A stretch of DNA of 64,000 nt from Rhodococcus sp. IEGM 1381 (lineage in GTDB: Bacteria; Actinomycetota; Actinomycetes; Mycobacteriales; Mycobacteriaceae), in assembly GCF_030056795.1 (NCBI RefSeq), contig NZ_JASHKQ010000001.1:1612001-1676000 (forward strand), given 5' to 3'. Within the stretch, counting starts at the first letter, position 1, and the number at the start of each line of letters is the position of its first letter. Under the pieces are notes generated by a model. That model was not told the origin of the DNA, ran no database searches, and saw only the letters and a program-made list of their open reading frames with translations. Made by a program: the position numbers and the translations under genes. Below, piece by piece: positions 37,342 through 46,127 of this stretch.

Positions 37342-37956
37342 ATGAGTCCTGCCACTCCCAAGGACGACGCATCCAGAGTGCGGCGGCGCGACGAGATCGC
37401 GACAGCGGCGATCGAAGTGCTGGCCACCAAAGGCTTTCGTGGGCTGACGCATCGGGCGGTGGACGAAGCAGCAGGCCTCGGCCCGGGCTCGGTGAACTAT
37501 CACGCGCCCACGCGAAGTCGATTGCTGCACCTGGCGCTGGGGCAATTGTTCGCCCGGGACTTCGAGGTTGCCGGGGCTACGTTCGGCAGCCTGGTCGACG
37601 TCAAACCCCTGACTGCGGACGTTGTGGTGAGCCGAATCGTGGATTTCATCCAAGCGATGACCACGGGCGACGCAGCCAAGCGGGTGATCGCCCGGAGCAT
37701 CATGCTCGGCGAAGCTCAGCACGATCGCGAGGTGCGTGAGTTGTTCGATACGCAGCGCGGCGCATTCATCACCTACGCCCAATGGATCGCCGCCTCGCTG
37801 GACTCCCAGGACCCGCAGGCGGAAGCCGAGACGCTGGTCGTGATGATCGAGGGGCTGATTCAGCGCCAAGTGCTCATCGGATCGCGCCTGCCTCGGTCGC
37901 TGGTGGAGCAGATGCTGAGAACGATCATCGGATCGTCACCGCTGATCGCGGACTAG
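37342..37956 (+). CDS. TetR family transcriptional regulator
   Basis: A 204-residue repressor. The helix-turn-helix spans about residues 15-60 (FRGLTHRAVDEAAGLGPGSV, then NYHAPTRSRLL). The variant NYHAPTR in place of the common YYHFPSK is typical of one TetR subgroup. The C-terminal domain is not diagnostic. The ATG at 37342 follows the dyad at 37274-37289. It probably senses the substrate or product of the PhlG-like hydrolase. Confidence 0.88.
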   Translation: MSPATPKDDASRVRRRDEIATAAIEVLATKGFRGLTHRAVDEAAGLGPGSVNYHAPTRSRLLHLALGQLFARDFEVAGATFGSLVDVKPLTADVVVSRIVDFIQAMTTGDAAKRVIARSIMLGEAQHDREVRELFDTQRGAFITYAQWIAASLDSQDPQAEAETLVVMIEGLIQRQVLIGSRLPRSLVEQMLRTIIGSSPLIAD

Positions 37957-37970
37957 CGGCGTACGCGGCA

Positions 37971-38696
37971 TCAGCCCAACAGTGAATTTCGCTCGGTATG
38001 GGTGAACGTGAAGATCGTCGCGCCGAAGCTGATCAGTGCCGTGAGAAGCAGGACCTGCGGTCCGGTGATGACGACGCCGATGAATGCGCCCACGACCCCG
38101 CCCAGTGCGAATGACCCGAGAAGAGCTGTGTAGCAGAGCCAGTCGTAGTGCGTCCCGCCCCCGAACAGATGCCGCTCGATACCTTGGCCGAGTTTGACCA
38201 ACGTTCCGGTGACGTAGCTGAGTGGAATGTACGTCTCTTCCTTCTTCGTGAATGCGGTGTTGAGAGCGCCCAGTGCGAAGGCCACCAACAGAATCGGGTA
38301 GAAGTTCACGTTTGCGGAAGACCAACCGGAGATGGCGATATCGATCGCCCCTGCGGCGGCGAGTGCGATGGTGGTCAGCACAGTCGCTCCGTGCGGATGG
38401 TTCGACCAGTAGCGCCGCCGGCAGATCGACGAGATCACCACGCCCGCGAGAAACGACCCCATCAGGGCCAGTGCAGCCCACGGCGAAGCACCTGGTGCAA
38501 CCTCTTTGCCCTCCGGGTGTCCGAAGTGACCGACGACAGCACGTTCGGTGTTACCGGTCATGAAGGTCACGAAATAACCGGCGGAGTGCAAGAACGCCAC
38601 TGCGCCCACCATCCCCGCGAGTCCGGAAAGAATCCAGGACAGGCGAGCTTCGGCGCCGACGGCTGTTTCGCGGCTGATCGACAGGGGGGAGGTCAT
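37971..38696 (-). CDS. YoaK/DUF1275 family membrane protein at the end of the MAA operon
   Basis: A 241-residue protein with six or seven membrane segments. Family marks are FLHSAGYFVTFMTGNTERAV, ALGALNTAFTKKEETYIPLS and YVTGTLVKLGQGI. DUF1275 proteins are widespread and mostly uncharacterised; transport has been suggested. It starts 50 bases after the dioxygenase stop on the same strand, without a clear ribosome site, so it may belong to the operon. If so, MAA export or uptake of a precursor is the natural guess, not an observation. Confidence 0.8.
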   Translation of the reverse strand: MTSPLSISRETAVGAEARLSWILSGLAGMVGAVAFLHSAGYFVTFMTGNTERAVVGHFGHPEGKEVAPGASPWAALALMGSFLAGVVISSICRRRYWSNHPHGATVLTTIALAAAGAIDIAISGWSSANVNFYPILLVAFALGALNTAFTKKEETYIPLSYVTGTLVKLGQGIERHLFGGGTHYDWLCYTALLGSFALGGVVGAFIGVVITGPQVLLLTALISFGATIFTFTHTERNSLLG

Positions 38697-38746
38697 AGTT
38701 CGATTGTCCGGGCCTGAGGCGAACCGGCAACTCTTTGAGTCGTCGG

Positions 38747-39499
38747 TCACATAACCGACATGTTCTCCACATTCGAGATCATTCCGCGGTGCATCACCCT
38801 GTTTCCGACAACCCCGCTGTGGTCGGCCCGATGCATCACACATCGGTTGTCCCACATCACCAGATCGCCTTGAGCCCACGCGTGCTGCACTATGTTGTCC
38901 GCTCGAGTGGAGTGCTCGAACAGGTACCGGATGGTCTCGCGCGCCTCCTCGGAGTTCATTCCGCTGATCGCAACGCAGCGGGCGGGTGCCGAAAGTGCGA
39001 GGGCAGTGCGGCCGGACACCGGATGTACTGCGAACAAAGGATGTTCGGCAGAGGAGTCGGTGTCCGACGCCACCCCGGTCACCCGGTGTGTCACCGTGCG
39101 TCCCGCCAGGTCCTCCTTCACGGCCGCGGGCAGCGTCTCGTACGCCGCGTATTGGTCGCTGAACTGGGTGCTGCCGCCGGCTGTCGGTACGCATACGGCT
39201 CGTAAAGCGGTGTAAGCGGGAGGATTCGGCACGTACGTCGTGTCGACGTGGAACGTCGACTTCGGCGGAGTGGTGCGGCCGACGTTGCTGACGACGTTCA
39301 GGTCGGGAAAACCGGGGACAGGAGTCTCGCCTTCGGTGAACATCAGATCGCCGAACCGGCGGAGGAACTCGATGAAGCGTCGATCGTCCATCGGTTGGTC
39401 ACGCAGGACGAGTACACCGTGTTCGGCCAACTGCGTTCGCATGTCGTCGACCGAAGCCGATCCCAGATCCAGACTGCGAATCTCCATTCCCAGCGTCAT
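38747..39499 (-). CDS. TauD/TfdA-type Fe(II)/2-oxoglutarate dioxygenase in the MAA operon
   Basis: A 250-residue dioxygenase with a complete active site: His84 and Asp86 in STFHVDTTYV, distal His223 in CVMHRADHS, and Arg238 in NRVMHRGM, fifteen residues after the distal His as in TauD. The HPLFAVHPVSGRTALALS segment is also TauD-like. It overlaps the MysD stop by ATGA. In cyanobacteria a 2-oxoglutarate enzyme of the phytanoyl-CoA type (MysH) converts disubstituted MAAs to palythines. This TauD-family enzyme may do an analogous tailoring, such as hydroxylation or oxidative loss of the amino-acid side group. Confidence 0.87.
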   Translation of the reverse strand: MTLGMEIRSLDLGSASVDDMRTQLAEHGVLVLRDQPMDDRRFIEFLRRFGDLMFTEGETPVPGFPDLNVVSNVGRTTPPKSTFHVDTTYVPNPPAYTALRAVCVPTAGGSTQFSDQYAAYETLPAAVKEDLAGRTVTHRVTGVASDTDSSAEHPLFAVHPVSGRTALALSAPARCVAISGMNSEEARETIRYLFEHSTRADNIVQHAWAQGDLVMWDNRCVMHRADHSGVVGNRVMHRGMISNVENMSVM

Positions 39500-40518
39500 G
39501 ACGCCAACTCCTTCACCGACAGTTCCCGGAGCGAGTGCGCGAACAAGCGGTCGATCGTGATGTCCGCTGCCGCGGCCATCACCGCAAGCACACTCGAGGG
39601 TGAGTACGAACAGTAGAGACCGGCCTCGAGGAACCAGGGTTCCCCGTCGGGATCGATGCGAAAATCGAACAGCCCGTAGTGCCGACAGCCGAGGGACCGA
39701 TAGCACGATCGTGCTGCCGCCCAGACCTTCTCGGTGATCGGATCCGAGGTGTCGACTATCCACGCCTTGGTCTGCTGCTTCGCGACCAGGTACAGATCCC
39801 CGTCCGCGGTCCGATTCAACTTGTCGGCACTCGTCCGCACGGAGTCGACGGCGTACTCCTCCAGGGGAAGGCACACCAGCTCACCGTCCATCGCGATGAT
39901 GCCGCACCGAACCTCGCGCCCGAGCGGGATGTACGACTCCACCAGTGCGGCAGACGAATACGCCAGCGCGTCGTCGATCGCGGATGTCAACGATTCATCG
40001 TCTTCGACGAGCGTGACTCCCCTCGAGTTGTCCGAGTCGACGGGCTTGACGACGACGGGCAATTCGAGATCGACTGTCCCGCCACCGCGTACCACCACGC
40101 CGGCCGGGACGGCGACCCCGGCAGCGGAGACAACGGCGCGGGCCAATGCTTTGTCCGCCGTCATGGCCATGACGCCCGGGGTGTTCCCCACGTACGGGAC
40201 ATCCATCAGATCGAACAGGCTGCGGTAGGTCGTCATGCCGGGCAGGCAGAACATCTGCGGCACCATGACGTCGAAGTGCCACGCAGACATGACTTCCACT
40301 GCCTGAGCCAAGGACATCTGCGGTGCCGCAGCCACACTGGCGGAGTCGATACCGCCGGGAAAGCTCCACAACCCGCCGGGGGAGACGAACGCCACCTCGA
40401 GCTCGTATGCGGGATCGCCTCCGAACGCGTCGAGGAAGCCCCCCGCATACACCCGAGACAGATCGCAGTGGAAATCGTCCACCGAAGATCCGACGAGTAC
40501 CAGGACCGACAGTGCCAT
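39496..40518 (-). CDS. mysD: MysD-like D-Ala-D-Ala-ligase homologue
   Basis: A 340-residue ATP-grasp ligase of the D-alanine-D-alanine ligase family. Visible parts are NTPGVMAMTADKALARAVV, the ATP-binding LPVVVKPVDSDNSRGVTLV and ESYIPLGREVRCGIIAMDGE, and the metal end HYGLFDFRIDPDGEPWFLEAG. In MAA pathways MysD adds a second amino acid (often Ser, Thr, Gly or Ala) to mycosporine-glycine, forming the imine chromophore. The ATG at 40518 overlaps the MysC stop (TGATG). FLEAG replaces the more usual E-x-N metal motif, so metal binding may be altered. Confidence 0.85.
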   Translation of the reverse strand: MALSVLVLVGSSVDDFHCDLSRVYAGGFLDAFGGDPAYELEVAFVSPGGLWSFPGGIDSASVAAAPQMSLAQAVEVMSAWHFDVMVPQMFCLPGMTTYRSLFDLMDVPYVGNTPGVMAMTADKALARAVVSAAGVAVPAGVVVRGGGTVDLELPVVVKPVDSDNSRGVTLVEDDESLTSAIDDALAYSSAALVESYIPLGREVRCGIIAMDGELVCLPLEEYAVDSVRTSADKLNRTADGDLYLVAKQQTKAWIVDTSDPITEKVWAAARSCYRSLGCRHYGLFDFRIDPDGEPWFLEAGLYCSYSPSSVLAVMAAAADITIDRLFAHSLRELSVKELAS

Positions 40519-41804
40519 CAGTCGCCTCCGTTCTCCACGAGCTTGCCGATGTTGAAGTCGATACGAGACCAGCCGCGGCGCGCCGCGAGATTGCGCACCA
40601 GCAGGGATGGAATCTGTAGGTGGTGTACCAGCAGGTACGGCAGCGGATCCCAGCCGGTCAGGATTGCGTCTTTTCCTCGAAAAACGGTGCGGAGCCGAGA
40701 CGCTCGATTGCCCTCGGTGAGCAGACGCCACAGCTCGTGGTAGATCCAGTACGTCGGCCGGGCCGTCGGACGCGGCACGATCATCGGATGATCGTCTTCG
40801 AGGTACGCCGCAGCCAGATCGGGTTGGTCGTAGAACATCGTGATGGCCGAGTGGGTGCGCGGGTTGCATTCGATGGCGTAGACCTGGCCGTCGGCCGCGG
40901 ACTCGATGAAGTCGAACGACAGCTGCCCGGTGGTGTCGAGCGACGAGACGAATGCGTCTACCCAGCGGAGGATTTCGGGCTTGTCGACCATGGCGTAGTT
41001 GACCTGGAAGGCCGACGACACGCAGCAGCCGTACACCTGCAGGCGACCCTCGCGCACCGTGCCGTGTGTGCAGTACTCCTGGCCGGCGATGAACTCCTGC
41101 AGGATCCACGGGTCGTCCTCGGTGATGTGCAGGCTCCGCGCGAACGTGGAATTGCGCTCCGGTGTGTGCGCCGACAACCGCGTCAGATCCATTCGGCCGA
41201 CGGGGTTGTAAGAGATCCGCTTGAGGATGTACTCACGACCCGGCGGAAACTCGAACTCGTCGATCTGGGCGGGGTCGGTGATGCGCCGAAAGTCTGGGAC
41301 CAGCAGCCCCAATGATGCTGCGTGCTCGGAGAATCGGGACTTGTCGTCCACCATTCGCACGATATCGGCGTCGCCGTGGATCACCTCGCAGTGCGCATCG
41401 AGGAGCGTACGTGCGTCCGCGTCGTGAATACTCGCGGCGGGGCTTGCCACGGGCACGAAGACGTCGACCCCCTCGCGGCGAACGATGTCCAGCAGCGCCT
41501 GCGCGTATCCCGGATCTCCCGGATCCGGAATGCAATGGAAGCGGTCGACAGCGCGGGAGAAGCGATGTCCGGTCCGGCGGTACTTCGCCGACTCCACCAG
41601 GATCACCCGATGGCCGGCGAGATGGAAGGACCGTGCGAGTTGCAGGGCCTTGGTCATCTTTCCGCCACTGATCAGAATCGTTTGGGGTTTATGGGTTCGA
41701 TGGGTGGCGGGCCGGGTGCCGCGCAGCGCCGCCAACCCCACCGCCGCGAGGTCGACGGGGAGGGTGACCGTGAGGCCGATCAGTGCTGCAACGGTACGGA
41801 TCAT
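40518..41804 (-). CDS. mysC: MysC-like ATP-grasp ligase (mycosporine-glycine synthase)
   Basis: A 428-residue ATP-grasp enzyme that would activate 4-deoxygadusol and join glycine to give mycosporine-glycine. A hydrophobic N-terminal stretch (VAALIGLTVTLPVDLAAVGL) precedes the TILISGGKMTKALQLARSFH nucleotide-fold segment. The ATP-grasp core has REYILKRISYNPVGRMDLTR, LQEFIAGQEYCTHGTVREG and the metal motif VYAIECNPRTHSA. Length and features match cyanobacterial MysC. It overlaps the MysB stop by ATGA and the MysD start by one base. Confidence 0.88.
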   Translation of the reverse strand: MIRTVAALIGLTVTLPVDLAAVGLAALRGTRPATHRTHKPQTILISGGKMTKALQLARSFHLAGHRVILVESAKYRRTGHRFSRAVDRFHCIPDPGDPGYAQALLDIVRREGVDVFVPVASPAASIHDADARTLLDAHCEVIHGDADIVRMVDDKSRFSEHAASLGLLVPDFRRITDPAQIDEFEFPPGREYILKRISYNPVGRMDLTRLSAHTPERNSTFARSLHITEDDPWILQEFIAGQEYCTHGTVREGRLQVYGCCVSSAFQVNYAMVDKPEILRWVDAFVSSLDTTGQLSFDFIESAADGQVYAIECNPRTHSAITMFYDQPDLAAAYLEDDHPMIVPRPTARPTYWIYHELWRLLTEGNRASRLRTVFRGKDAILTGWDPLPYLLVHHLQIPSLLVRNLAARRGWSRIDFNIGKLVENGGD

Positions 41805-42601
41805 GTGCGCCTGATCAGCGTCACACCGTCACGCAGAGGAATCAGAACCTGTTGCACACGAGGGTCGTCGGCGACGTAGTCGTTGAATTCGGCGATGGCC
41901 CGGCCGTTGTCGCTCGGCTGCGGCGCGTAGGGCTGACCCTGCAACAGGGTGTTGTCGACGGCGATCACGGCACCGTCGGAGAGCAGATCGCTCTCGAGCA
42001 GATACTCCACGTACCCGCGATATCCGGTCTTGTCGGCGTCGATGAACACCAGGTCGAACTTCCCGTCGAGCCGGTGAAGAGTGTCGAGCGCGGGTCCCAC
42101 GTGCACCGTGATGGCAGATCCTGCAGTCGAATCCGCGAAGCAGGACTGCGCGAACTCGGCCACGTAAGGATCAACCTCGCACGCGACGACCTCCCCGCCT
42201 GCGGGCAGCGCCTCGGCCATCGCCAGCGCCGAGTAACCGGTGAACATACCGATCTCGAGCACCCGCGTCGCCCGGGTCATGTGTACGAGAAACGCCAGGA
42301 AGCGTCCCTCCACATGACCGGAGAGCATTTCCATCTCCAGGGGCCCGGAACCGGAGACCACGTCACGTGATCTCCAGTCCGCAGAGCGGGTCCGCGACGC
42401 CAACGTGGCCAGTGCCGCGGATTCGGAGGTGGTGCAGGTGTCGAGATACGGGTCGAGTCCCGCGGCGAGATCGCGGGCCCGATGAACACGAGTGGTCAGC
42501 TCATCGGTCACCCCGGCGTCGGCGTCGAGCAGTGCGGCTATCTCGCCCAGCTCGCGCGCGAGGATTGTCGTCGGGGTGACCGGTCGCGGCTGCGCAGTCA
42601 C
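41801..42601 (-). CDS. mysB: MysB-like O-methyltransferase
   Basis: A 266-residue SAM-dependent O-methyltransferase of the catechol/caffeoyl-CoA type. The SAM loop is [20 protein letters not shown], followed by [15 protein letters not shown] and [19 protein letters not shown]. In the MAA pathway it methylates demethyl-4-deoxygadusol, the MysA product, to 4-deoxygadusol. The GTG start overlaps the MysA stop as GTGA, which fixes the reading unit. Confidence 0.9.
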
Positions 42602-43809
42602 GGCGTCGGTGCGGTGAACATGTCGAGGCCTTCGCCGGCGCGCGGAAAGTCGAGGCAGATCTTCTTGTGCAAGGTCAGCACATCGGCCAGCTCGTGCGCG
42701 TCCAGATCGTTGAGGAAACGGCAGGTGCCGATCGGGTCGGGTACTGCGGCGCGCAGAATTCCGTCACGGGTCTTGAGGATCGATGCCGTTGCCTCGGAGA
42801 GCAACTCGGGTGTGAGGTAGGGGCTGTCGAGGGCCAGCCCGATGCTGCTCATGACGCCCAGCACTCGATCACGGTCTGCCGCGGACAGATGGCCTCGCTG
42901 TTCGGCGACTGTTGTCGACAGTGCCATGTCGATGTTGATCGCGTGGCCGTGGAAGAACGGAGCGGGTGGCGTCAGCTCGAGCGTCGGGCTCCAGGTGTGG
43001 CCGAAGGCGATGACGCGATCGAGGTCGATCTCGTGCAGATTGGGAGCCTCGAGCTCGAGCATCGTGGCAATAGCAGAGTAAGTCAGTCTGTCTGCGACCG
43101 AACGCAATTCCGCTGTGCCCTCGAGATGTCCGAAGCGAGTGCGCAGCAGTTCGGGACCGTACTGTTCGAGCATCTCGAAGATTTCCAGATTGCCGACGAC
43201 GGAGATCTTGATCAGCTCCGCCATCCCGTTGCGCACCTGGTCCTCGGGCAGCGTGCCGAGGAACGAGAAGTCGAGCAGCACCTTCTGCGATGCGTGGTAC
43301 GCGCCGAGGCGGTTCTTGTGCTTGCCGTAGTTCACGGCCACCTTGATCGACACGCTCGCGTCGATCAGGCCGATCAACGTAGTGGGAATGCGGATGTACG
43401 GGGTGTTGCGTCGGTAGCTGGCGCACGCGAAACCTGCTACGTCAGTAGTCAATCCACCACCGACCACCAGCACCGGCTCGGTGCGGACCAGACCGAAGGA
43501 GTCGAATTCACCGACGATGCGCTCGAAGGTTTCCAGCGACTTCGCGGTTTCCCTGATCTGTACCGGGACCACCGTCAACGCGATGTCGTGATGATCGAAG
43601 TACGCGCGGATTCGGTCCCCGTAGATCTCGTGAACCGACTCGTCGACGACCATCAGCGCGCGTCCGTACGGGCTGTAGCTGTCGGCCAATTCGGTGTTCT
43701 CGAGAGCGAAGACACCGTCGACGTAGATCAAGTCGTACTCGATACGCTCGTATCCCTCGACGCGAAAAGACCTGTCCCCGGCAACGACCTGGGCCTGAAG
43801 ATTGCTCAC
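42598..43809 (-). CDS. mysA: MysA: demethyl-4-deoxygadusol synthase-type sugar-phosphate cyclase
   Basis: A 403-residue NAD- and zinc-dependent cyclase of the dehydroquinate-synthase superfamily that acts on sedoheptulose 7-phosphate. The glycine motif is [13 protein letters not shown] (about residues 115-127). Residues 142-174 read [20 protein letters not shown] and then [13 protein letters not shown]; the IDASVSIK and RLGAYHASQ words are those of DDG synthases rather than the 2-epi-5-epi-valiolone synthases with IDAGVGIK. Likely zinc ligands are Glu198, His271 and His287. The GTG at 43809 has AGGAG upstream. The surrounding MysB-D genes confirm the MAA branch. Confidence 0.9.
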
Positions 43810-43834
43810 AATTACTCCTGGGGTGGATGAAGGG

Positions 43835-44500
43835 TCAGGCTGAGATCAGAGCGCGCACGCGCTCGGGATCGAGTGCATCGACGGTGTCGGTAGCCGAGCC
43901 GAACTCGGTGCCTGCAGTGTTCTCGTTCGGGAATGCGACGCACGTGATGCCTGCGGCCGCTGCTGCTGCCGCGCCGCCGGCGTTGTCCTCTATGGCCACA
44001 CTGTCGGATGCGTTCTCGCCCAAAGTTTTCAAAGCGAACTCGTAGGACGCGGGGTCGGGCTTGCCTGCGTCCACCGAGGATGCGTCGACGATGACGTCGA
44101 ACGAATCGGCGGTCAGTTCCGGGCTCAGGGCCGCCAGCAATGCGTCGATGTTGTCGCGGGACGTGGTGGTCACGAAGCCCACCTTCACACCGTTCGCCTT
44201 GGCGGAGTCGATGGTATCGGCAACGCCGGGGCGCGTTTTCACGTCGGATTCGCCGATCAACCGTTGGAAGATCTCCGATTTGGTGGCGTGAACCGCGGCG
44301 GCGTCGACCTCGGTGCCTGTATCGGATGCGTACTCGCTGATCCGGTCGGCACCACCGTTCGACCCGAGCATGGAGCGGTAGTCCTCACGAGACCAGTTCC
44401 AGTTCAGATCGTGGGCTGCGAAGGCCTCGTTGAACGAGCGACGTTGCAGTTCGGACGTGTCGACGAGCGTGCTGATCGAGCCGAACAGAATTGCGGACAT
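43835..44500 (-). CDS. HAD-fold (CbbY-like) protein lacking the nucleophile aspartate, first gene of the MAA operon
   Basis: A 221-residue HAD-IA protein. Where active phosphatases read FDxDGTLVDT, this protein reads [12 protein letters not shown]. The nucleophile Asp is Gly and the general acid/base Asp is Ile, confirmed by the codons TTC GGC TCG ATC AGC. The rest is intact: motif II FVTTTS, the Lys of [10 protein letters not shown] and motif [12 protein letters not shown]. It cannot use the normal phosphoaspartate mechanism. It starts the operon 25 bases ahead of MysA, so it may bind a sugar phosphate or act as a regulator or chaperone. Related FGSI-type HADs occur elsewhere, so this is probably a real subfamily. 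Confidence 0.85.
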
Positions 44501-44529
44501 GGGTGCCTTTCGGAGCGAGAGACGATGTC

Positions 44530-44585
44530 TCGCGCATGCGCGATGGGTGACTTGGTTCGGGGGGTATGCCCCATCGGCACCGAAC
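44530..44585. promoter_or_regulatory. Dyad-rich gap between the adenylate cyclase and the MAA operon
   Basis: In the 103-base gap there is a 14-base palindrome TCGCGCATGCGCGA (44530-44543) and a bulged hairpin whose outer arms are GTTCGG (44555-44560) and CCGAAC (44580-44585), with GGGG/CCCC inside. On the minus strand the hairpin follows the cyclase stop and could terminate it. The palindrome lies 30 bases before the HAD start and could be an operator. Confidence 0.4.
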
Positions 44586-44603
44586 GGGAAACCTTCGAAT
44601 TTT

Positions 44604-46127
44604 CTAGGGTGTGGCGGACTGCCGGCTGGGGTGAACGGGGGCGGCCAGAATCGTCGGTGCGGACCGTCCGCGCAGCGTCACGGACTCACGTGTTTTCCAG
44701 TGCTTCCTCTCGTCCGCGGTTGCGTGATCGAGCACGATCGACGAGGTGAGCACATCGATGTTCGGGTCGTCCTTCGCGAGATCGGTGAGCCGTGCCGCTT
44801 GATTCACGGTGTCGCCGATGACGGTGTACTCGAAGCGGGATTCGGCTCCGATGTTTCCTGCGATGACCGGCCCGTAGGTCACGCCGATGCCGATCTCGAC
44901 ACCACTGTCGGTGGCCAGGGCGGTGGCCAGAGTGCGCGCGGTCCGCAGCGCCGCGGTGGCCGGGTCCGGGTGATCGACCGGAGCGCCGAAGATCAACAGC
45001 GCGGCATCACCCTCGAACTTGTTGACGAAGCCGCCGTGTCGTTCGCCGTGCTCCACCACTACCGCGAAGAATCGATTGAGCAGATCGACCACTGTCTCCG
45101 CGGACTCTCGTTCGGCCATCGCCGTCGAACCCACGAGATCGATGAACAGCACCGCCACCGTCCGGTTCTCACCACCGAGGCGTGGAGCGCTCGCGAGCGC
45201 TCGCTGCGCCACATCCTGACCTACGTGGCGTCCGAACAGTGAGCGCAGGAGCTCGCGCTCGTCGAGGCCGACCACCATCTTGTTGAACCCGTTCTGCAGT
45301 CGGCCGATCTCGGAGGCGTCGTAGACGTCGACGCGGGTGCCGGTCGCACCGCCCTCGACGCGTTGCATGGCCGTGCTGACTTGCTGCAGCGGATCGGACA
45401 CCGATCGGCCGACCAAGAACATCCCGCCGAACCCGACAACGAGGGCGATCGCGGACAACGAGACCATCGCGGGCGACAGGTCGACGTCCGGGGGGATGAC
45501 GGTGTCGATCAGTCTCCCGAGTCCGATGAGCCCCACACCCAGGATGGGAATGGCCGTGCTCAGTACCCAGATGAGGACGACCCGCAATTTCACACCGAGA
45601 GCGACCGTATCGGTGACCTCACTGACCTCCATCACAGCTGCCGTGATCGGCCGAAGAGTTCGTTCGGCAACCAGATAACCCAGTGAGCAGGTCGCCAAGC
45701 CGCCGAAGCTGACGGCGATGGCCACGATGATCGACAGAGCGGCACCTGCCGACGCATTGACCGCCACGAACACTGCGACGCCGAGAGCCCACAGCAGAAC
45801 ATGGACGCCGAGTTGGCGAAGGGGCAGCCGGACGATGGCGATCGCGGTGTCGTCCGAAGGGGTGCCGCCGGTGTGCAGCCACCGCACCAACGGTGCCGCC
45901 ACCCGGAGTCCGAGCGCGATGCCGATACCGATCGCGACCGGTAAGTACACGAAGAACGCCAGGTAGTTGCGGTCGGACAGGATCTCCTCGGAGCCGACCG
46001 GCAACGGCAGGATGAAGCGGGCCAACACGAATACGATGACCGCCCCGATGGCGTTGGCCGACACCATGCCCGCCGCGTAGAGCCGCATCGGGGTGCGGTC
46101 GAGGGCGGACCGTAGAGCTGCGATCAC
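44604..46127 (-). CDS. Membrane adenylate/guanylate cyclase with HAMP domain
   Basis: A 507-residue class III cyclase of the mycobacterial Rv1318c/Rv3645 type. Six hydrophobic segments fill roughly residues 15-250, a HAMP domain follows (about 250-305), and the catalytic domain is C-terminal. Catalytic residues are intact: metal Asp in VLFIDLVGST and NKFEGDAALLIFG, the substrate-selecting Lys in NKFEGD and Asp in IGDTVNQAARL, and the transition-state Asn and Arg in NQAAR. The GTG at 46127 has AGAAGGAG upstream; the longer open frame to 47177 is antisense to the AurF-like gene. Confidence 0.88.
   Translation of the reverse strand: MIAALRSALDRTPMRLYAAGMVSANAIGAVIVFVLARFILPLPVGSEEILSDRNYLAFFVYLPVAIGIGIALGLRVAAPLVRWLHTGGTPSDDTAIAIVRLPLRQLGVHVLLWALGVAVFVAVNASAGAALSIIVAIAVSFGGLATCSLGYLVAERTLRPITAAVMEVSEVTDTVALGVKLRVVLIWVLSTAIPILGVGLIGLGRLIDTVIPPDVDLSPAMVSLSAIALVVGFGGMFLVGRSVSDPLQQVSTAMQRVEGGATGTRVDVYDASEIGRLQNGFNKMVVGLDERELLRSLFGRHVGQDVAQRALASAPRLGGENRTVAVLFIDLVGSTAMAERESAETVVDLLNRFFAVVVEHGERHGGFVNKFEGDAALLIFGAPVDHPDPATAALRTARTLATALATDSGVEIGIGVTYGPVIAGNIGAESRFEYTVIGDTVNQAARLTDLAKDDPNIDVLTSSIVLDHATADERKHWKTRESVTLRGRSAPTILAAPVHPSRQSATP

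Follow-up and report, generated by a model that had tools for sequence, protein, structure and literature searches.

Gene arrangement of the locus

The window, i.e., the whole stretch of 64,000 nucleotides that was analyzed, carries on its - strand seven genes between 44500 and 37971, in the order HAD-MysA-MysB-MysC-MysD-TauD, followed by DUF1275 (Table 1). The preliminary description had proposed an operon MysA-MysB-MysC-MysD for mycosporine-like amino acids (MAAs) with overlapping start and stop codons, and the coordinates bear this out: all frames are open, and the overlaps amount to 4 bases for MysA/MysB, 4 for MysB/MysC, 1 for MysC/MysD, and also 4 for MysD/TauD. HAD and MysA are separated by 25 bases, and TauD and DUF1275 by 50 bases, with the start of DUF1275 (38696) being a choice made within a longer open frame. 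Pfam matches over the cut-off were HAD, DHQ_synthase, Methyltransf_3, Dala_Dala_lig_C, TauD, and DUF1275. A scan of 37800-45000 found no promoter or terminator, and such a scan is uninformative in actinobacteria. A gene similar to that of the HAMP and guanylate-cyclase-domain protein also precedes HAD in another locus (L042).

Table 1. Features of the MAA locus in window coordinates.
Feature	Position	Strand	Basis
HAMP + guanylate-cyclase-domain protein	44604 to about 46200	-	Pfam; ends 103 bases before HAD, co-directional
HAD, CbbY-derived, both motif I aspartates replaced	43835..44500	-	Pfam HAD, structure match, alignment
HAD motif I codons Gly7-Ser8-Ile9-Ser10 (CbbY: Asp-x-Asp-Gly)	44471..44482	-	alignment
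MysA, predicted desmethyl-4-deoxygadusol synthase	42598..43809	-	scores, sequence blocks, tree
MysB, O-methyltransferase	41801..42601	-	Pfam Methyltransf_3; place in operon
MysC, ATP-grasp-type ligase	40518..41804	-	NCBIfam NF005315 over cut-off
MysD, D-Ala-D-Ala-ligase-like	39496..40518	-	Pfam Dala_Dala_lig_C; omega-loop pair L-A
TauD/TfdA-family dioxygenase	38747..39499	-	Pfam TauD; H84, D86, H223, R234
DUF1275 membrane protein	37971..38696	-	Pfam DUF1275; neighbor in close clade only
TetR-family regulator, convergent to operon	37342..37956	+	Pfam

Three genes had initially been counted as additions to the core. HAD and TauD indeed belong to the conserved cluster, but DUF1275 adjoins the operon in only 8 of the 100 loci compared (1/20 and 7/80), all from close relatives, which ruled it out as a core component; the TetR-family regulator occurs in the same 8 loci. 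That DUF1275 is an exporter is a guess. Gene order is unchanged in the locus of the R. fascians type strain (L122), where HAD and MysA are 95% identical to those of the window; for these two together with MysB, MysC, and DUF1275, the range is 92-95%. In the comparison of L122 with window positions 37342-40518, identity was 75% for MysD, 76% for TauD, and 77% for TetR, and this lower likeness is possibly due to allele exchange.

The cyclase and the predicted route

MysA aligned over residues 1-398 with 5tpr (560 bits), which we take to be the A. variabilis desmethyl-4-deoxygadusol (DDG) synthase, and scored 275 bits against 4p53, presumably the EEVS ValA, and 120 bits against 3qbd, presumably a mycobacterial DHQS. 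All four sequence blocks compared were of the 5tpr kind. MysA also contains the sequences IDASVSIK and RLGAYHASQ. In a tree with DDGS, EEVS, and DHQS references, MysA grouped with 5tpr and the cyanobacterial MysA proteins, away from ValA and AroB (92/99 for the 20-row side, several inner forks being unsettled); the cyanobacterial MysA rows were four retrieved by a regular expression out of seven loci asked and three from HAD loci. The earlier assignment to DDG rather than valiolone synthases was thereby upheld by blocks, scores, and tree alike, which identify MysA, at the level of sequence, as a DDG synthase and not an EEVS or DHQS. EEVS and DHQS are related enzymes that likewise start from sugar phosphates, but a cyclase of one of these kinds, directing the cluster to a valiolone-type compound, was ruled out by the same three lines of evidence and is extremely improbable. 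The genome of the window contains two genes of the DHQ-synthase family, AroB and MysA.

Other cyclases were encountered alongside. Two loci with HAD, MysB, MysC, MysD, and TauD carry a divergent cyclase that is 38-39% identical to MysA (L032:7789-9039 and L033:8487-9779, in G168 and G306), in which DAGPSPRTCCDG replaces the corresponding MysA sequence block. Six of the 37 genus genomes (G004, G014, G021, G022, G024, and G028), but not the window's own, have a further cyclase that is EEVS-like and 42-44% identical to MysA (L035-L038); the L035 copy overlaps with a gene for ketosynthase III.

The O-methyltransferase, the MysC-type ATP-grasp ligase, and the D-Ala-D-Ala-ligase-like MysD all adjoin the cyclase. 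MysC gave no Pfam match over the cut-off and passed NF005315 with 410.3 bits at a cut-off of 406, so that its name rests on one NCBIfam model of unnamed function and on its position; phmmer found no solved relative of MysC. In MysD, two omega-loop positions are L and A, the columns having been located on an alignment through the residue patterns that PMC11983340 names, matched on 13 cyanobacterial rows, with two or three MysD rows (L194, L195, L209) misfitting these patterns. According to the accessible part of that work, L and A at these positions favor shinorine (PMC11983340), and the sequence of MysD accordingly reads as that of an enzyme predicted to form this product. The TauD protein has Pfam TauD as its sole match, and its metal and 2-oxoglutarate residues H84, D86, H223, and R234, assigned by eye, are in place. 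It had no match to the phytanoyl-CoA dioxygenase family, to which cyanobacterial MysH, a dioxygenase of palythine formation, belongs; cyanobacterial MysI is also of the TauD/TfdA family and was proposed to free a palythine-type amine (both as given in the accessible part of PMC10510106). Close orthology to MysI of Nostoc sp. UHCC 0926 is disfavored by the match of the window TauD, at 1e-30, to just 1 of 292 cyanobacteria.

In the route that we propose, MysA would cyclize sedoheptulose 7-phosphate to desmethyl-4-deoxygadusol, MysB would methylate this compound, MysC would add glycine to give mycosporine-glycine, and MysD would add serine, which is a prediction, to give shinorine. The TauD-family dioxygenase would then oxidize an amino-acid arm, which would fall off, and thus probably trims shinorine to palythine types. 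The first three steps are based on the proteins of R. fascians D188 studied by others, as D188 MysABC led in S. albidoflavus to mycosporine-glycine, a product that absorbs at about 310-335 nm as expected of mysABCD clusters (as described in PMC11284840), and the MysD and TauD steps are based on others' unpublished work together with sequence. In this unpublished work, as cited in a 2025 preprint (PMC11888242), the D188 operon, HAD and TauD included, was placed in S. coelicolor and yielded shinorine, palythine, and palythine-serine. The preliminary description had seen a full route to a disubstituted MAA; the mysABCD set is complete as stated, but the end product is probably palythine-type and not only a plain disubstituted MAA because the TauD-family dioxygenase is intact.

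As far as the papers describe it (PMC11284840, PMC11888242), the D188 operon matches the window in its enzymes, HAD and TauD among them, and our sequence comparison was made with the type-strain locus L122 instead. MysA was found at an identity of at least 82% in 31 of the 37 genus genomes, with the G012 copy split over two contigs. The idea of a rare or new find did not stand in view of this frequency and of the mycosporine-glycine already made with D188 MysABC (as described in PMC11284840). The MAA operon is of an already known kind, common and partly characterized in the clade, and within this group of Rhodococcus, MAA sunscreens belong to the standard traits.

A CbbY-derived HAD protein with an altered motif I

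What is new is a conserved HAD component that, judged from its alignments, lacks the catalytic aspartates and is under strong constraint. The nearest solved relatives of HAD are CbbY proteins (1e-39), and its AlphaFold2 model (mean pLDDT 95.3) gave CbbY as the best Foldseek match (TM 0.85, 38% identity). CbbY is a xylulose-1,5-bisphosphate phosphatase by its PDB title (4uar, 4uat), and with respect to substrate preference beyond this title, we take it to be a sugar-bisphosphate phosphatase. HAD is like CbbY in fold and has kept the WxW and GGxxR motifs and the motif II-IV residues, whereas motif I reads FGSISTL in HAD and FDVDGTL in CbbY. The DxDG sequence with its nucleophile and acid/base aspartates is thus replaced by GS(I/L)(S/G), and the exchanges E16S, H19Q, and S173N come in addition. 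By sequence and fold, HAD derives from CbbY, and it appears to be a relative, but not a functional member, of the CbbY phosphatases.

Both motif I aspartates were absent in all 95 HAD rows aligned, which comprised the window, the best 80 of 192 relatives, and 14 rows found via MysA, with some genomes reached twice. G7 and S8 were fixed and position 9 was I or L; S16, Q19, and N173 (E, H, and mostly S in CbbY) were also fixed, and T111, K147, E171, D172, R53 of the cap, and K74 were kept. The scan behind the best 80 of 192 accepted a locus with either of two peptide patterns, and because SELQR is part of one of them, the invariance of S16 and Q19 in those 80 rows is to some extent a product of the search. 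Neither pattern covers motif I (G7 to S10), which is likewise seen in the 14 rows reached via MysA. Of 29 loci, L135 alone escaped the motif regular expression; it has a GSI-type HAD. Control matches to the HAD family in two genome samples had kept DxDG in 64 of 73 cases (53/55 cyanobacterial and 11/18 actinobacterial), and the nine without it were those of seven MAA genomes, G458 with a HAD adjoining TauD, and an unlinked gene of G518.

HAD cannot act as a HAD phosphatase because both motif I aspartates are replaced, and the alignment of motif I in the 95 rows rules out an ordinary phosphatase. An active phosphatase that uses another residue on, for instance, a sugar bisphosphate precursor would fit the CbbY ancestry and the kept motif II-IV residues, but as both motif I positions are devoid of aspartate in every row, and E16 and H19 of CbbY are replaced as well, we regard such an activity as improbable.

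The loss of catalytic residues could also be taken as a sign that HAD is a decaying relic or a hitch-hiker. However, among nine close relatives (36 pairs), the dN/dS value of HAD was 0.069, which ruled out a relic, in comparison to 0.030 for MysA, 0.138 for MysB, 0.120 for MysC, 0.155 for MysD, 0.162 for TauD, and 0.052 for DUF1275. HAD was, moreover, intact in all 31 MysA-bearing genus genomes, with none in the six without MysA, and an MAA-type cyclase at 1e-60 was found in 7 of 396 actinobacterial genomes, two of them with the divergent kind, and the same seven carry HAD (at least 53% identical). Decay is therefore very improbable. HAD is under strong purifying selection and is kept, but not for HAD-type hydrolysis.

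The accessible part of the GATOR-GC report describes MAA clusters of Actinomycetota in which, as in the window, the core genes are accompanied by a conserved HAD and TauD; HAD is listed there as a conserved enzyme that awaits validation, and the loss of HAD catalytic residues is not mentioned in that part (PMC11888242). We found no published explanation of the MAA-cluster HAD in the open-licence literature. With the nucleophile lost, experiments should look for a ligand or a partner and no longer for a substrate to be hydrolyzed, and the finding may matter for rebuilding MAA pathways for sunscreen production.

Distribution and possible role of HAD

With the rest of the pocket kept, HAD would most likely take part in MAA synthesis without hydrolysis, either by binding a ligand or as a partner of other proteins. 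The GS(I/L)(S/G) motif is shared by every one of the best 80 of 192 relatives, which come from named genomes, and the gene after HAD is MysA in 71, TauD in 5, and a contig end or partial gene in 4, two of which show the start of MysA. An accessory role in MAA synthesis is in line with the presence of HAD exactly where the cyclase is present among the 396 actinobacteria and with an intact HAD where TauD is missing or broken.

In peptide amidation, a lyase acts after the hydroxylase, and by analogy, HAD could serve TauD only by helping the hydroxylated side arm to fall off. Cyanobacteria provide the arguments for such a restricted role and against a general one. Five cyanobacterial loci, four of which are metagenome assemblies, carry the MAA-type HAD, and it is followed by TauD in four and lies at a contig end in the fifth. 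Among 292 cyanobacteria, the window TauD was matched at 1e-30 in one only (G458), which also has HAD, and neither the MAA-type HAD nor the window-type TauD occurs in the 19 genomes that have MysA; MAA synthesis hence does not need HAD everywhere. The five cyanobacterial loci with HAD, four of them with TauD, differ from the account in the accessible part of PMC11888242, by which Cyanobacteriota lack both genes. In the HAD tree, the cyanobacterial proteins are united in one clade (100/100), the closest neighbors of which are two actinobacterial rows (96/78, 89/91); in the TauD tree, the bootstrap of which was unsettled, they likewise make up a single clade (100/100), nested within the others. 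MysA of three of the cyanobacterial HAD loci (L059, L121, L126), in contrast, groups with the cyanobacterial MysA. As HAD and TauD each form one clade among actinobacterial rows next to a MysA of the cyanobacterial kind, these trees suggest a transfer of a HAD-TauD module.

Against a function for TauD only, five genomes (G273, G454, G455, G456, and G461) kept HAD without a TauD match at 1e-20, although a TauD-family gene of 28% identity lies at a distance of about 6 kb in G455, and G461 is a partial assembly with HAD at the contig end. Within the genus, 30 of the 31 MysA-bearing genomes gave TauD matches; G031 has only a deletion remnant and G032, counted among the 30, a frameshifted gene, and HAD was kept beside both broken copies. 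The constraint on HAD also exceeds that on TauD, as judged from the above dN/dS values. HAD is not tied exclusively to TauD, and we consider a function restricted to TauD unlikely, though it retains some weight.

Returning to HAD as a ligand-binding or partner protein, actinobacterial MAA synthesis may rely on a phosphatase-dead CbbY-derived protein, the pocket of which was rebuilt (DxDG to GSIS, E16S, H19Q, and S173N) to bind a pathway compound or to hold enzymes without hydrolysis, and which, together with TauD, would be a module that moved from actinobacteria to some cyanobacteria. In this detailed form, the proposal is tentative, its chances being slightly below even. The locus as a whole is best explained as a complete actinobacterial MAA operon that includes a non-hydrolytic CbbY-derived HAD, which we hold to be quite probable.

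In three loci (L083, L091, and L107), HAD and TauD occur without an adjoining MysA. In the case of L091, MysA is located elsewhere in the genome; the genomes of L083 and L107 had no MysA at 1e-60, and MysC is present in both. L107, from Microlunatus flavus, has a HAD-TauD-MysC-MysD unit without an adjoining MysA or MysB, for which an outside precursor or an unseen cyclase are candidate explanations.

A scan of viral contigs found no HAD relative. Two GSI-type HADs sit away from MAA genes, and the family is therefore wider than MAA synthesis. One is the 35% identical gene of G518 (L238:7352-8053), a cyanobacterium without MysA at 1e-100, and its adjoining genes are presumably glgC and rsgA. The other one, 45% identical, is located on plasmid pROLI81 of Roseobacter litoralis (L218:5992-6663), where it adjoins trkA, trkH, and an L,D-transpeptidase gene.
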